Positions 3,201-28,366 of a stretch of DNA of 28,720 bases are shown here, one piece after another. Source of the DNA: a virus; IMG/VR virus record IMGVR_UViG_3300009703_000079, positions 1-28,720 of that record; one strand, 5' to 3'. Position 1 is the stretch's first letter. Each line of letters starts with the position of its first letter. The position numbers were made by a program, and so were the translations under genes. The notes beneath the pieces are model-generated. The model ran no database searches. It was not told the DNA's origin and was given only the letters and a program-made list of their open reading frames with translations.

Positions 3201-3727
3201 TAAAACCCCGCAGCTTTAGGTTGAGCTTTTTTATAAAAAATATTTAATGTATATCGAGGAGAGCTATCACCAAAAGATTGAAGATCTGTGTGAGCTATTT
3301 TAGCGCCATTAAAAAATATAGCTCTATTTTCTACAAACCCTACATGAGAAGAAAGTTGACCAGTGTCAGTAAAAAAACCTGTACCATTATTTAATAAAGG
3401 TTTACCTTTAACAAATAATAAAAAATTACAATCAGTTTTATGATCTGTATGTACCATAGGTTTGCTACTATTATGTCTTAAGTGTGCTGCAATTTCTGTT
3501 GGTTCTAAATCATAATAAGGAAAAAAAAATTCTTTTATACGATCTAATAAAGGATCTTTTTTCATTTTCTGTGTGTCGAAACGATGTCTATTTCCATACA
3601 ACCCATCTTCATTTACTCGTGGAGTATACTCTAATTGTAAAAAATTATCTTGAAGAGATTTTAAAGTTTTTTCATCTAAAAAATTATCTACATATTGTAC
3701 AAATCTAGTAGCTTTATTGTATTGCAT
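3200..3727 (-). CDS. Second HxD...H 2OG-Fe(II) oxygenase-like protein
   Basis: About 175 residues from the ATG at 3727. Iron-ligand pattern H93-T-D95, then H146 in KIAHTDLQ, then R158 in SPRYTLNIFY, which fits a small cupin-fold 2OG-Fe(II) oxygenase. It differs clearly from its downstream neighbour: the linker is short and contains GTGFFTD, so this is not a recent duplicate. I prefer the ATG at 3727 because AAAGG sits seven bases before it. An in-frame ATG at 3742 adds five residues and is also possible. The 5' end overlaps the sulfotransferase gene and the stop shares TAATG with the next oxygenase. Fold assignment is fairly good; the reaction is unknown. Confidence 0.65.
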   Translation of the reverse strand: MQYNKATRFVQYVDNFLDEKTLKSLQDNFLQLEYTPRVNEDGLYGNRHRFDTQKMKKDPLLDRIKEFFFPYYDLEPTEIAAHLRHNSSKPMVHTDHKTDCNFLLFVKGKPLLNNGTGFFTDTGQLSSHVGFVENRAIFFNGAKIAHTDLQSFGDSSPRYTLNIFYKKAQPKAAGF

Positions 3728-4313: not shown

Positions 4314-4875
4314 ATTTATGATTAAGTAAAGTAGGTTTCATAAAGAAAAATTTATCTTTATTTTTTAATCTTGTTATAATTTCTATTAATATTCTGTAAG
4401 CACACAAAGAAAATTCATTAGTAGCATAAGAAGGAGATTCACAAATAAATAAATAATCAAATGAATCAAAAGCAATATCGTCAAATGTTTTAGTAATGGT
4501 TATCCAATCTTCACATTTAACTCCTGCATCGGGATCTGATGTATAATTAGATAACCAATATGCATTATCAATAAAATTAGGTTTCATTAAATAATATCCA
4601 AGCCAATTGCTAGAAGCTAATCCTTTATCAATAGGAAAGTTTGGATAAGTTAAATCATGGTGATGATCAATAGAAACTACATCTATAGTTTTTTTATTTT
4701 TTAATAAAGGTTCTAGAATATAATATATGTCTACATGTTTTTGAGATATTACAATGTGAGTATCTTCTATCTTATCTATATATTGTAAAACAAATTTAAT
4801 TAATTCTACTAAAGATCTAGAATCTTTAACAAAATCGCAATCAACTGATAAGATATTTTTATTTTTTTCTGTCAC
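4297..4875 (-). CDS. Arginase-like / UPF0489-like protein
   Basis: About 192 residues. The pattern ILSVDCDFVKDS near the N-terminus followed by DVVSIDHHHDLTY (about 66-77) recalls the metal-binding loops of UPF0489 and other ureohydrolase-fold proteins, where Asp/His clusters bind a metal pair. SNWLGYYL and AYWLSNYTSDPD follow, again as I remember for UPF0489. No product can be named. The frame lacks an early ATG; GTG at 4875 is chosen because AGGA lies seven bases before it, and TTG at 4878 is the alternative. The start lies within the last codons of the cupin gene. The assignment rests on motif memory only; it could be an unrelated metal-binding protein. Confidence 0.4.
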   Translation of the reverse strand: MTEKNKNILSVDCDFVKDSRSLVELIKFVLQYIDKIEDTHIVISQKHVDIYYILEPLLKNKKTIDVVSIDHHHDLTYPNFPIDKGLASSNWLGYYLMKPNFIDNAYWLSNYTSDPDAGVKCEDWITITKTFDDIAFDSFDYLFICESPSYATNEFSLCAYRILIEIITRLKNKDKFFFMKPTLLNHKYAFIN

Positions 4876-20182: not shown

Positions 20183-21711
20183 TATGCCCTCCAAAACATT
20201 TCAGAAAATTCTTTATCAGTTTCTGAACGAACCATATGTAATTCATTTTTTGCTCGTGTCATTCCCACATAGAATACACGACGTTCTATATCTCTATTTT
20301 TTCTATACCCCTCATCTACTTTATGAGTAAGCTGAGAAAATAATAATACATTACTTGCCTCTCCACCTTTTGATCCATGAATTGTAGAAAGTTTTACTTT
20401 CGCTTCGTGATTAAAATTTTGATTACGTCTTAATGATGCTAATAAATAAGCAACTCGTGTTGGAGAAATTCGATCTAGTGCCCGATCCCATTGCATTGTT
20501 TGTGGTAAAAGTAATCCATAATTATTTATTAATTCAAAATAATTATATTCTTTATCTTCACTTGCCCTGGGCATTGTTTTAGATCCATAACTTACACCAA
20601 CATCTACACTCATATAATGATACATAGCTTTTACACCTTGTAACGAAATAGATTTATTACGAGTAAGCTGTGTCCAACTATTAATAGCTAAGAGTAAACG
20701 ATCACTAACTGATTTAGAATTATGTCGCTGATAAAAAATTCCTCTAGTTTTTAATTCTTCTTCTACTTGATCAAGTAAATGATTTGTTCTAGCTAAGATT
20801 AACCAATCATCTTTTAAAAAATCTATGTTACGATAAGGATTTAATTGAAACTTTAACTTTCCTTTTCTCTCAGTAGCATTCCAATTCTTTTGAACACGAT
20901 CATCAATGCGATTAATCACGGCATCCGCACGCTGTTGCACGGCTAACGGTACACGGTACGATTGATTTAAAATAATTCTATTTCCTTTCTGTTGTTTAAA
21001 TCTCCAAGGATGAGCACCTGCCCATTCAAATATTGCTTGATCATCATCACCTGCAATGTAAGTATGAGTAGCATTTTTAGATAAAATGTCTACCATATTC
21101 CATTGAATTGCGCTAAGATCTTGCGCCTCATCTATAATAAGAAGTTTAAATTTAGGAGATTTCTTACGTTTTACAAACTCTAAAATCATATCAGTGAAAT
21201 CCATAAAACCATTTTGTTTTTTATATTTATCTAATCCAGATGCAATCTTACGTAACTTTAAAAAACCACCCGGTAAATGTCCAGTCTGTGGTTGACAGAA
21301 TTGATGTTCTAAACTAACATCTTTAATCCTTGCAAGATCAATAATACTTACGAACTTATCATCTTGCCATCCCATACCATAATTATCATACTTATTTGCG
21401 GGGTTAGATAATTTAACATTTAATAAATCTGATATATCTTTGTAGTCATTATCATCCATTAAAGAAGAATCTGTTAATCCTAATTCCATGTATGCTAAAC
21501 TATGTAACGTTCTAAAATATTTAAAATCTTTTTTATCGTACTGTGGAAATTGGCTCACGGCACGAGTAATAGCTTCTGTTGCGGCTTTACGAGTGTAAGC
21601 AAAGTAACCAATTTCATTAGGTTCAATTCCCTTTGCTAATCCTTCTTCTACAATGCTTAAAAGTTTATGTGTCTTACCTGTACCAGGCGGACCAAAAATA
21701 ATATTCATCAT
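20182..21711 (-). CDS. UvrD/Rep-like superfamily 1 DNA helicase
   Basis: A 509-residue helicase with the SF1A motifs in order: Walker A GPPGTGKT (7-14), motif Ia FAYTRKAATEA, Walker B LIIDEAQDLS (191-200), motif III IAGDDDQAIFEWAG (219-232), motif IV-like ILNQSYRVPLAVQQ, motif V STIHGSKGGEA and motif VI RRVFYVGMTRAKNEL near the C-terminus. It is shorter than cellular UvrD/Rep, as usual in phages, with reduced 1B/2B inserts. It would unwind DNA 3' to 5' at the replication fork or during recombination. It starts inside TAATGATG at the primase stop, so primase and helicase are translationally coupled, which fits a primosome pair. Confidence 0.9.
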   Translation of the reverse strand: MMNIIFGPPGTGKTHKLLSIVEEGLAKGIEPNEIGYFAYTRKAATEAITRAVSQFPQYDKKDFKYFRTLHSLAYMELGLTDSSLMDDNDYKDISDLLNVKLSNPANKYDNYGMGWQDDKFVSIIDLARIKDVSLEHQFCQPQTGHLPGGFLKLRKIASGLDKYKKQNGFMDFTDMILEFVKRKKSPKFKLLIIDEAQDLSAIQWNMVDILSKNATHTYIAGDDDQAIFEWAGAHPWRFKQQKGNRIILNQSYRVPLAVQQRADAVINRIDDRVQKNWNATERKGKLKFQLNPYRNIDFLKDDWLILARTNHLLDQVEEELKTRGIFYQRHNSKSVSDRLLLAINSWTQLTRNKSISLQGVKAMYHYMSVDVGVSYGSKTMPRASEDKEYNYFELINNYGLLLPQTMQWDRALDRISPTRVAYLLASLRRNQNFNHEAKVKLSTIHGSKGGEASNVLLFSQLTHKVDEGYRKNRDIERRVFYVGMTRAKNELHMVRSETDKEFSEMFWRA

Positions 21712-23222
21712 TAAAAAGCTTCTTTCTTTTTCATGTCTGGTAGTGGTAAATCTTTTTGATCCATAGGTCTAGAAGGTACATACCATAAGTAGTATGTAAT
21801 GCCTTTAACTTTTTTTCGATGGTTGCCTCCACCTAAATCCTGCATTACTCTTGCATGCATTTCTGTTTGAGTAAGAGCAACAAATCTTTTTTTATTTAAA
21901 TATTCTTTTAAAGTCTTAGGTTGAAAATAAATTTTACTGTCATGTTCCCAAGGCATTTCAATTGCTATTTCTTCTTCTCTATCTGATACACCTTGATCAT
22001 AAATAAAAGAATATAAATAAGAATCGAACTGACCATACTTGCTTATCTCTGCAGGTGTTTCAATTATTTCTACGTTCTCTAATAAACTTTGAATCTTAGC
22101 AGTCCATGCAGCAGGGCTTAAAGCATTAGGCAATTGAGTTAATGCATCCATACATTTTTTTCTAAACTTGCGCTGATCAAATAGTTCTTCTGTATTTAAA
22201 ACTAATCTTTCTTCTTCAAAATTTAAAAACCAAACAGGTTCATCAGAATCATATTTTTGTAAATCAGAAAATTTACTTTCATATTCTCCACCTATCCCAT
22301 ACTTTCTTAAACGACACTGTGGTGCATCACATCTTGAACACATGGGTTGATCTTTACATTTATATTGATAATCTTTTTTGTCATGTTGATTAATTGTTTT
22401 TGTTACTTGCGCATGACCAAGCGGTGGTTTCATATATTTAAAATTAAATTCAGCAATTTTATCTTGCCAATTCTCAGGCCATTTCTTTTTTGTATACACA
22501 GCATATTGATATAAAACATTATCTCTACCACCTTCATCAATACCAACACTAATTAATGTTTGTAAACAAGGAGGACCATCCTCTAACTCTTCGATTGTTT
22601 TAATTTGTTTTGTTTTAAAATTTTTTAAATTTTCTTTTGTTATTTTTCTTTCATCTACAAAAGAAAGAAACTCATTCAATGATAATGACTCACCTTTTTT
22701 ATCAAAAGCATATCGCATTGTCTCATCACCTGCATGATAAGGTAAGTTTAAAAAGTTTCCTGTGTCTCCACGATCTGCTTGTAGTTCTATTTGTTTAGGA
22801 AATATTTCACAATCAGCATAACCTAATAAAGAAGCAAAACTCGTCAATCGATTTCGCATTAATTTAGCTGTAGCAACACCATCTATAAATAAAAATAAAT
22901 GTGCACCCCCACTTTTTGATCGACATGCAATCAAAGGTAATTTTAATTTTTCTATACTCTTAATTAATTTTTTATGATCTAAAGGATATGTATCTACATC
23001 TATACATCCCCATCTACATGTAGCATCATCCATAATAGGAACGATACCAAGACTAGGATCTTTCCCCTCTATGTGATCAATCCAATGTTGAGGAGTAACG
23101 GGTTCTTTTTTTATGTAAGACTGACCACCTCGCTTACCATTGTCTTTGATCTCGCCCGGAACATATACACCATGAGCCCTTTCTAAACCCATAAAAATTT
23201 CTTTAAATTTTTCTACACTCAT
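21711..23222 (-). CDS. AEP-type primase (TOTE-like) with PriCT-like C-terminus
   Basis: A 503-residue protein. Archaeo-eukaryotic primase signatures are clear: WGCIDVDTYP with catalytic D75 and D77, then ACRSKSGGAHLFLF (99-112, the 'sGg.H.w' motif with H108), then CEIFPKQIELQ (138-148) and GNFLNLPYH (155-163). The 'EiFPKQ...GN.lnLP.H' form matches what I know as the TOTE conflict-system primase domain rather than DnaG. The next part (GRDNVLYQYAVYTKKKWP) looks like a PriCT domain and ends in a four-cysteine cluster, CKDQPMCSRCDAPQCRLRKYG. It would make RNA or DNA primers. No helicase domain is fused; the UvrD-like helicase follows in the same operon. A terminator-like hairpin precedes it. Confidence 0.85.
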   Translation of the reverse strand: MSVEKFKEIFMGLERAHGVYVPGEIKDNGKRGGQSYIKKEPVTPQHWIDHIEGKDPSLGIVPIMDDATCRWGCIDVDTYPLDHKKLIKSIEKLKLPLIACRSKSGGAHLFLFIDGVATAKLMRNRLTSFASLLGYADCEIFPKQIELQADRGDTGNFLNLPYHAGDETMRYAFDKKGESLSLNEFLSFVDERKITKENLKNFKTKQIKTIEELEDGPPCLQTLISVGIDEGGRDNVLYQYAVYTKKKWPENWQDKIAEFNFKYMKPPLGHAQVTKTINQHDKKDYQYKCKDQPMCSRCDAPQCRLRKYGIGGEYESKFSDLQKYDSDEPVWFLNFEEERLVLNTEELFDQRKFRKKCMDALTQLPNALSPAAWTAKIQSLLENVEIIETPAEISKYGQFDSYLYSFIYDQGVSDREEEIAIEMPWEHDSKIYFQPKTLKEYLNKKRFVALTQTEMHARVMQDLGGGNHRKKVKGITYYLWYVPSRPMDQKDLPLPDMKKKEAF

Positions 23223-26587: not shown

Positions 26588-26794
26588 ATGGATACAACTA
26601 AATTTAAATCTGTAACAATATCAATAGATACTTGGAATAGATTACATAAGATTGCTGCAAAAGATATGAGATCTGTCAGCAGAACCATTGAATATTTAGT
26701 GCATGAGCACAATTATTTAAATAAAAAATATGGAAAAAATGGGAATATAGATATGACTCCTAAAGAATATTTTAAGGAGGAACGTAATGGGTAA
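26588..26794 (+). CDS. Ribbon-helix-helix (CopG/Arc-like) regulator
   Basis: A 68-residue protein with the compact ribbon-helix-helix pattern: a beta strand KSVTISIDTWNRL (about 8-20) that would pair in a dimer and contact DNA, then two helices, HKIAAKDMRSVSRTIEYL (21-38). The 'S...i..l' in helix B is typical of CopG-type proteins. The rest is a polar tail. Such phage proteins usually repress their own promoter and a few others. It has a good promoter of its own and a near-palindrome over the -10. It overlaps the next gene by eight bases, with AAGGAGG inside its 3' end serving that gene. Regulator fold is well supported; targets are unknown. Confidence 0.75.
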   Translation: MDTTKFKSVTISIDTWNRLHKIAAKDMRSVSRTIEYLVHEHNYLNKKYGKNGNIDMTPKEYFKEERNG

Positions 26795-27448: not shown

Positions 27449-27652
27449 ATGAGCATTCACTTGCCTAATAGCCCTGTTCGAAAAATATATGAGTGCCCTA
27501 AATGTGCCACTATTTCTGTAAAATTTTGGAATAATAAATATAATCGTAGCTATACTAAAGATGAATGGAACACGATTCGTGGACAAGGGATTGAAGTATT
27601 ACGTAAAATTATGCAACCAATAACAGAAGATCCAAAGTTTTTTTTAGAATAG
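27449..27652 (+). CDS. Small protein with one CxxC, function unknown
   Basis: A 67-residue protein: YECPKCATISVKFWNN holds a single CxxC pair (Cys15, Cys18), followed by a helical part, SYTKDEWNTIRGQGIEVL, and an acidic end. One CxxC alone could bind zinc only with partners or as a dimer. The ribosome site AAGGAGG is very strong. It is a one-gene unit between a terminator and the repeat-bearing non-coding stretch. I do not recognise the family; a small DNA- or protein-binding role would fit the surroundings but is not shown. Confidence 0.5.
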   Translation: MSIHLPNSPVRKIYECPKCATISVKFWNNKYNRSYTKDEWNTIRGQGIEVLRKIMQPITEDPKFFLE

Positions 27653-27706
27653 TAAGATGTTTTAAAAGTTATTAGTTAAATATTTTTTATAAAAACTTTC
27701 ATATTG

Positions 27707-27808
27707 AAGTAACCAAGTAACTTTAGTATGTAACTCTATGATATATAACAATAATATAGGTTACTTATACGGTTACTTACAGTTACCTGCCTCATCACAA
27801 AAGTAACC
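27707..27808. repeat. Seven-copy AAGTAACC-like repeat array
   Basis: Copies of the eight-base unit AAGTAACC/T occur forward at 27707 (AAGTAACC), 27715 (AAGTAACT) and 27728 (ATGTAACT), then reversed at 27759 and 27771 (both GGTTACTT) and 27781 (AGTTACCT), and forward again at 27801 (AAGTAACC). The GTAAC core is kept in all seven. Spacings are 8-13 bases within each cluster, and the two clusters face each other around about 27747. This looks like an array of binding sites for a dimeric or multimeric DNA-binding protein. Confidence 0.75.
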
Positions 27809-27855: not shown

Positions 27856-27873
27856 TAAACTAAGCTAAACTAA
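27856..27873 (+). repeat. Two TAAACTAA repeats at the terminase start
   Basis: TAAACTAA occurs at 27856-27863 and 27866-27873, ten bases apart, ending one base past which the overlapping ATG codons begin; similar ACTAAA words recur in the first codons of the gene. The ten-base period would put both on the same DNA face. No Shine-Dalgarno sequence is visible in this stretch. Confidence 0.5.
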
Positions 27874-27877
27874 ATGT

Positions 27878-28366
27878 ATGGGCACTAAACTTACACTAAA
27901 ACAACTTAAATTTGTTAATGAATTAGTTAGAGAAGATGGAGCTATTACTCCTACCGAAGCTGCAAGACGGGCTGGGTATTCTGTTGATAGAGCAAGAACA
28001 ACTGCTTCTGAATTATTAAATATTCAAAAACACCCTGAAATTGTTAGGTATGTAGATGAATTAAAAAAAGAAATGCAACACAAAACTGCAGTTACTTTTG
28101 ATCGTCATGTTAAAAGATTAGATGATTTATCTAGAGAAGCACAGAAAGATAAGGCTTGGTCAGCTTCTGTTCAAGCAGAAAAGAATCGAGGTCAAGCAGC
28201 AGGATTTTATAATCATACACAAAACATACATACACTAAACTCTATCGACACAATGAATCTTGAGCAAGTTCAGTCAAGATTAAAAGATATTCGCAAATTA
28301 TATGGGGATATAATAGATGCAGACTTTACAGAGATACCAGAGATTGAACAAAAAAAAGAGGGCTAG
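27878..28366 (+). CDS. terS: Terminase small subunit
   Basis: A 162-residue protein. LTLKQLKFVNELVREDG (about 5-21) followed by a helix-turn-helix ITPTEAARRAGYSVDRARTT and LLNIQKHPEIVRYVDEL is the Terminase_2-type N-terminus of phage small terminase subunits. The rest is helical and charged, as expected for the oligomerisation and tail regions. The protein would recognise the phage DNA start site and load the large subunit for packaging. The large subunit gene does not follow on the same strand within the window. The ATG at 27878 lacks a Shine-Dalgarno sequence. A repeat array lies just upstream, and the stop codon falls inside the hairpin that ends the converging operon. Confidence 0.8.
   Translation: MGTKLTLKQLKFVNELVREDGAITPTEAARRAGYSVDRARTTASELLNIQKHPEIVRYVDELKKEMQHKTAVTFDRHVKRLDDLSREAQKDKAWSASVQAEKNRGQAAGFYNHTQNIHTLNSIDTMNLEQVQSRLKDIRKLYGDIIDADFTEIPEIEQKKEG

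Follow-up and report, generated by a model that had tools for sequence, protein, structure and literature searches.

A 99-bp array of short repeats in two facing clusters, just upstream of the small terminase gene (terS) in the marine phage DNA analysed here (the window, 28,720 nucleotides in full), is probably a set of iterons that the phage's own AEP-family primase binds through its C-terminal domain and that marks a replication origin. Binding of the array by the primase appears quite likely, given the covariation between the repeat unit and this protein; the role as an origin is argued from the part that the primase plays in replication and from the parallel with systems such as P4 alpha and PLE RepA. 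A local copy density far above background, a layout conserved in relatives and a unit that covaries with the primase, which are expected of an iteron origin, were all found.

A facing array of GTAAC repeats

An earlier note on this DNA, made from the letters only, had described seven GTAAC cores in about 100 bases, three forward, three reversed and one forward, with an AT-rich flank on the left and the small terminase gene alongside. It had considered the arrangement hardly a product of chance and had read it as either a pac site or an iteron array. The description proved accurate. The cores lie at 27709-27713, 27717-27721, 27730-27734 and 27803-27807 on the plus strand and at 27760-27764, 27772-27776 and 27782-27786 on the minus strand, in the exact order +++---+ and within 99 bp (Table 1). 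The array ends 70 bp before the start of terS, whose product matches Terminase_2, and its left flank and central spacer are 87% and 88% AT, against 66% for the whole window. The window contains 56 GTAAC cores in total, one per 512 bp, and the second-densest 140-bp stretch holds only three of them; no 105-bp stretch held more than four cores in any of 300 first-order Markov simulations of the window, against the seven observed. GC skew mirrors the orientation of the genes and gives no pointer to the array, and neither Rfam nor a DNA-similarity search returned a match. CTAAAC repeats (taaactaagctaaactaaatg) at 27858-27880 immediately precede the start codon of terS, and in one relative, L010, such repeats form a cluster downstream of the gene (4551-4623).

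Table 1. Array, flanking elements and candidate reader genes in the window.
Feature	Position	Strand	Basis
AEP-family primase, 503 aa, proposed array reader	21711..23222	-	PF22548, 7nqd, PHROG 21866
Primase residues 426-484, C-terminal winged-helix-like domain (predicted)	21771..21947	-	AlphaFold2 secondary structure, covariation, domain swap
RHH (MatP_C-like) protein, rival reader	26588..26794	+	domain match, comparison
AT-rich left flank of array, 87% AT	27640..27706	.	base composition
Array site 1, AAGTAACC	27707..27714	+	sequence
Array site 2, AAGTAACT, 8 bp from site 1	27715..27722	+	sequence
Array site 3, ATGTAACT	27728..27735	+	sequence; missing in most group-1 relatives
AT-rich spacer separating the facing clusters, 88% AT	27735..27758	.	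base composition
Array site 4, GGTTACTT, reversed	27759..27766	-	sequence
Array site 5, GGTTACTT, reversed	27771..27778	-	sequence
Array site 6, GTTACC, reversed	27782..27787	-	sequence
Array site 7, AAGTAACC	27801..27808	+	sequence
terS, small terminase subunit, neighbour, probably not the array reader	27878..28366	+	Terminase_2 PF03592, E 3e-12

The layout is retained in relatives and the unit changes in concert

Searching viral contigs for terS yielded 27 loci, and the number rose to about 360 with profile and group searches; the contigs are fragments without end repeats. We surveyed the DNA upstream of terS with an unbiased 6-mer cluster scan. The layout is shared by three TerS groups. Usually it begins with three forward units at intervals of 8-9 bp; after a spacer come two or three reversed units, and a single forward unit closes it. 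In the comparison with relatives that the earlier note had proposed, the closest relatives thus retain the array upstream of terS and, where the unit differs, all sites have changed in concert. Each of the long marine-relative contigs examined contains exactly one cluster of its own unit.

The units seen include GTAACC, GTAATT, GTAATG, GTACTA, GTAGAA, GTAGCA, GTAGCG, GTTGCG, GTCTTG and GTAAAC. In L003, whose TerS is 96% identical to that of the window, all sites but one depart from GTAACC, mostly to GTAATT. The unit is GTAATG in L024-L026 and GTACTA in the rest of L013-L027; group 2 has GTAGAA, GTAGCA and GTAACC, and group 3 has GTAGCG, GTTGCG, GTCTTG, GTCTAA and CCATAGC. In groups 2 and 3 the same scan placed the array immediately upstream of terS in most loci that carry the RHH gene. 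Four group-2 contigs (L161, L167, L173 and L182) share an invariant block, AAAGCCGACCGCGTCATTTTTTTTCC, between array and terS, though their units differ.

Most of the more distant TerS relatives (L053-L123) showed no array in the 6-mer cluster scan, although an array does lie upstream of terS in two of their contigs, G108 (GTAACC) and G096 (GTAATG). L132 combines an RHH protein of the window's type with a distant TerS and yet carries a GTAAC-type array (GTTACAAG/CTTGTAAC, 3458-3541), which suggests that the array travels with the early module past terS. In one clade, whose primase is 38-39% identical, only ATATC-type repeats occur upstream of terS, and that primase carries G where the window's has T476. 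Such ATATC/GATAT repeats were seen at L451 316-384, at L485 5403-5432 and upstream of terS in L088, L092 and L123; they are possibly a degenerate or AT-only form of the array.

The unit covaries with the primase C-terminal domain

Because all sites of one array change together, the protein that reads them should change too. Among TerS, the RHH protein and the primase, the C-terminal domain of the primase fits best as what the unit would follow. The protein encoded at 21711-23222 matches the AEP/Prim-Pol superfamily both by family (PF22548, E 9e-11; PHROG 21866, primase) and by fold (CAPP Prim-Pol, 7nqd, E 1.5e-9). AlphaFold2 models its C-terminal 80 residues as beta-beta-helix-helix-wing, with the wing at residues 466-483. 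A fold search with the isolated C-terminal model gave no significant PDB match, winged helices included; from the predicted helix-helix-wing topology, the C-terminus is a putative winged-helix-like DNA-binding domain. T476 (codon 21795-21797) falls in the second wing strand, two residues before a conserved [RY][VLM]W strand.

It is this position that tracks the unit. In 18 close group-2 contigs, the alignment column of T476 (column 459) pairs one-to-one with the unit: T with GTAACC (5/5), S with GTAGAA (11/11) and N with GTAGCA (2/2). No other of the 121 variable primase columns does so, and no column of TerS or RHH is one-to-one in the same contigs; one gappy column of another family also is, with missing data, and we do not consider it meaningful. 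As the 18 contigs are related, they do not amount to 18 independent events. In other groups, GTAACC (group 1) again goes with T at position 476, and both GTAGCA and GTAGCG (group 3) go with N; the residue is D for GTTGCG, Q for GTCTTG, K for GTACTA and A for GTAAAC. The primase of L003 (GTAATT) retains T476 and shows two other changes in the wing, K471T and G474N, both absent from every GTAACC group-1 primase examined. The covariation holds within clades and has exceptions between them: S occurs at 476 with GTAAC-type units in L272 and G108, and N with CCATAGC arrays, so that residue 476 is one part of a context-dependent code.

A natural domain swap, a single case, points to the same part of the protein. 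Over residues 281-400 the L323 primase shares 95% identity with its L187 counterpart, falling to 62% over 401-480; in the comparison with L308 the values run the other way, about 60% and then 88-95%. The array unit is GTTGCG in L187 and GTAGCG in both L308 and L323, so in this swapped primase the array goes with the C-terminal domain. Whole-gene distances compared by motif did not separate primase, TerS and RHH. The three gene trees are too congruent for parsimony to tell the candidates apart, the unit requiring 12-13 changes on each of them.

Arrays beside the primase gene in sequenced phages

The primase family, at 31-41% identity, is also present in sequenced gammaproteobacterial phages of Klebsiella, Acinetobacter, Providencia, Salmonella and Pseudomonas. 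In eight of these (PSA28, VLCpiS6a, K21lambda1, PMBT28, Kokobel2, JeffCo, Bhz9 and phage 53) it is the primase gene, in place of terS, that has an array upstream of it, within about 300 bp. The first five have three TGGAAC units, a spacer, two reversed units and one forward unit; in JeffCo, Bhz9 and phage 53 the primase gene is preceded by related arrays. The array spacer is GC-rich in the sequenced phages, against 88% AT in the window. In DSL-LC04, whose primase is 41% identical, no array was found near terS within the 24 kb of genome scanned.

A second complete array is present in PSA28 and VLCpiS6a, roughly half a genome from the first and no more than about 2 kb from the packaging genes. 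In JeffCo the unit of the first cluster recurs in another one near the genome end (coordinates of these second sets: L447 31252-31480, L446 1671-1893 and L445 42851-43002). PSA28 and VLCpiS6a are also annotated with an adenylosuccinate synthetase gene, the product of which may be the PurZ of 2-aminoadenine phages.

Alternative roles and readers

The primase might bind the array as a transcriptional control of the terS promoter or of its own gene, and not to start replication. In favour of this, the gene that the array immediately precedes is terS in the window and the primase gene in the sequenced phages, a TTGTGT-17-TATATA element is visible by eye between array and terS, and plasmid iterons often autoregulate too. 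We nevertheless regard such a role as unlikely: a consensus promoter scan passed over that element, the primase is a replication-module enzyme, the 3/2-3/1 layout is retained whichever gene comes next, and two complete arrays are present in each of PSA28 and VLCpiS6a.

A TerS-bound packaging site, whether the pac site of the earlier note or a cos site, is improbable. The array does adjoin terS in all marine groups, and the second arrays of PSA28 and VLCpiS6a lie close to packaging genes. However, the TerS helix-turn-helix is essentially constant across the three group-2 units, the only change in that region in L003 (A22S) is also present in the GTAACC phage L005, TerS had no column one-to-one with the unit, and in all eight sequenced phages one array sits at the primase gene. 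TerS was set aside as probably not the reader, since its helix-turn-helix appears unchanged while the units change. Because the unit changes together with the putative DNA-binding tail of the primase, an origin is the most likely role, not a packaging mark; the iteron part of the earlier proposal is thus strengthened, with a reader that the note had not suspected, and its pac part is weakened.

The RHH protein was the reader first favoured, on F6Y and S12D in L003 and on Y6/G12 against W6/P12 in group 2. S12 is at a predicted DNA-contact position, residues 6 and 12 split GTAAC from GTAG arrays in group 2, and L132, with its distant TerS, combines a window-type RHH protein and a GTAAC array. 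An operator or centromere-like site bound by this protein is still very improbable, and it was dropped because its DNA-contact strand (KSVATKM) does not change with the site, being identical in group 3 with GTAGCG, GTTGCG and GTCTTG arrays, and because no homologue was found in the array-bearing VLCpiS6a, PSA28 and JeffCo; it also fails to split GTAGAA from GTAGCA in group 2. RHH queries against the sequenced phages gave no matches. The RHH protein may also touch the array region.

Proposed mechanism and significance

In the origin reading, the winged-helix-like C-terminal domain of the primase would bind the facing sites, so that two facing groups of bound primase would sit either side of the AT-rich spacer and, with the phage helicases and PolA, would be delivered to start DNA synthesis at the array. 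Joint change of unit and wing would keep each phage's primase on its own origin. A wider generalization is tentative, namely that phage AEP primases of a widespread family also serve as sequence-specific origin-binding proteins, with position 476 as a main specificity switch, and that primase and array have co-diversified many times. The driver of such diversification is perhaps competition among phages, satellites or origin-directed nucleases, each lineage having a private origin code.

To our knowledge, replication origins are unmapped in most marine and many other tailed phages. If the origin reading is true, those of phages with this primase family could be located by sequence analysis alone, whether the phages are uncultured marine ones or infect Klebsiella, Acinetobacter, Providencia and Salmonella. 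It would also provide about a dozen naturally occurring primase/array pairs for studying how a wing reads DNA, and the same pairs would serve for the study of how origin specificity evolves.

Comparison with known systems

Iteron origins and winged-helix origin binding are already known. In the literature searched, and in the portions of it available, we found no AEP-family phage primase that reads a facing iteron array with a residue tracking the unit, and no report of iterons in Acinetobacter phages. In RSF1010, the origin layout and the C-terminal domain differ from those of the window. Its RepB' is a plasmid primase solved with initiator DNA (3h25), and it matches the window primase in fold (3h20, E 3e-4). 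The PrimPol of phage NrS-1, a weak fold match (E 0.04), is an AEP enzyme whose priming depends on a specific 8-nt sequence (PMC7102993); it recognises the template during primer synthesis, and the available part of that paper describes no array of facing duplex sites.

Other parallels lie in the domain architecture. The pRN1 ORF904/PolpTN2 family joins an AEP domain to a C-terminal winged helix, as predicted here, and origin recognition has been proposed for PolpTN2 (PMC5862659, PMC4234260); in the parts of these sources available, the proposed pRN1 origin is a stem-loop without iterons, and a covarying array is described for neither pRN1 nor PolpTN2. P4 alpha is a primase with a winged-helix domain that binds origin repeats (PMC4234260), by analogy the arrangement predicted for the window; it is a Toprim-type primase and a single multifunctional protein, whereas the enzyme described here is of the AEP superfamily and is encoded apart from the helicases. 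Finally, in the PLE satellites of Vibrio cholerae, which face an origin-directed nuclease of ICP1, the DNA-binding domain of the initiator RepA covaries with the origin, and swap experiments proved the cognate specificity (PMC8263062). Here too the putative DNA-binding domain covaries and swaps with the array, although the PLE initiator is of the RepA_N type and reads semi-palindromic iterons of about 30 bp, whereas the window and its relatives would use a primase and units of 8-9 bp.
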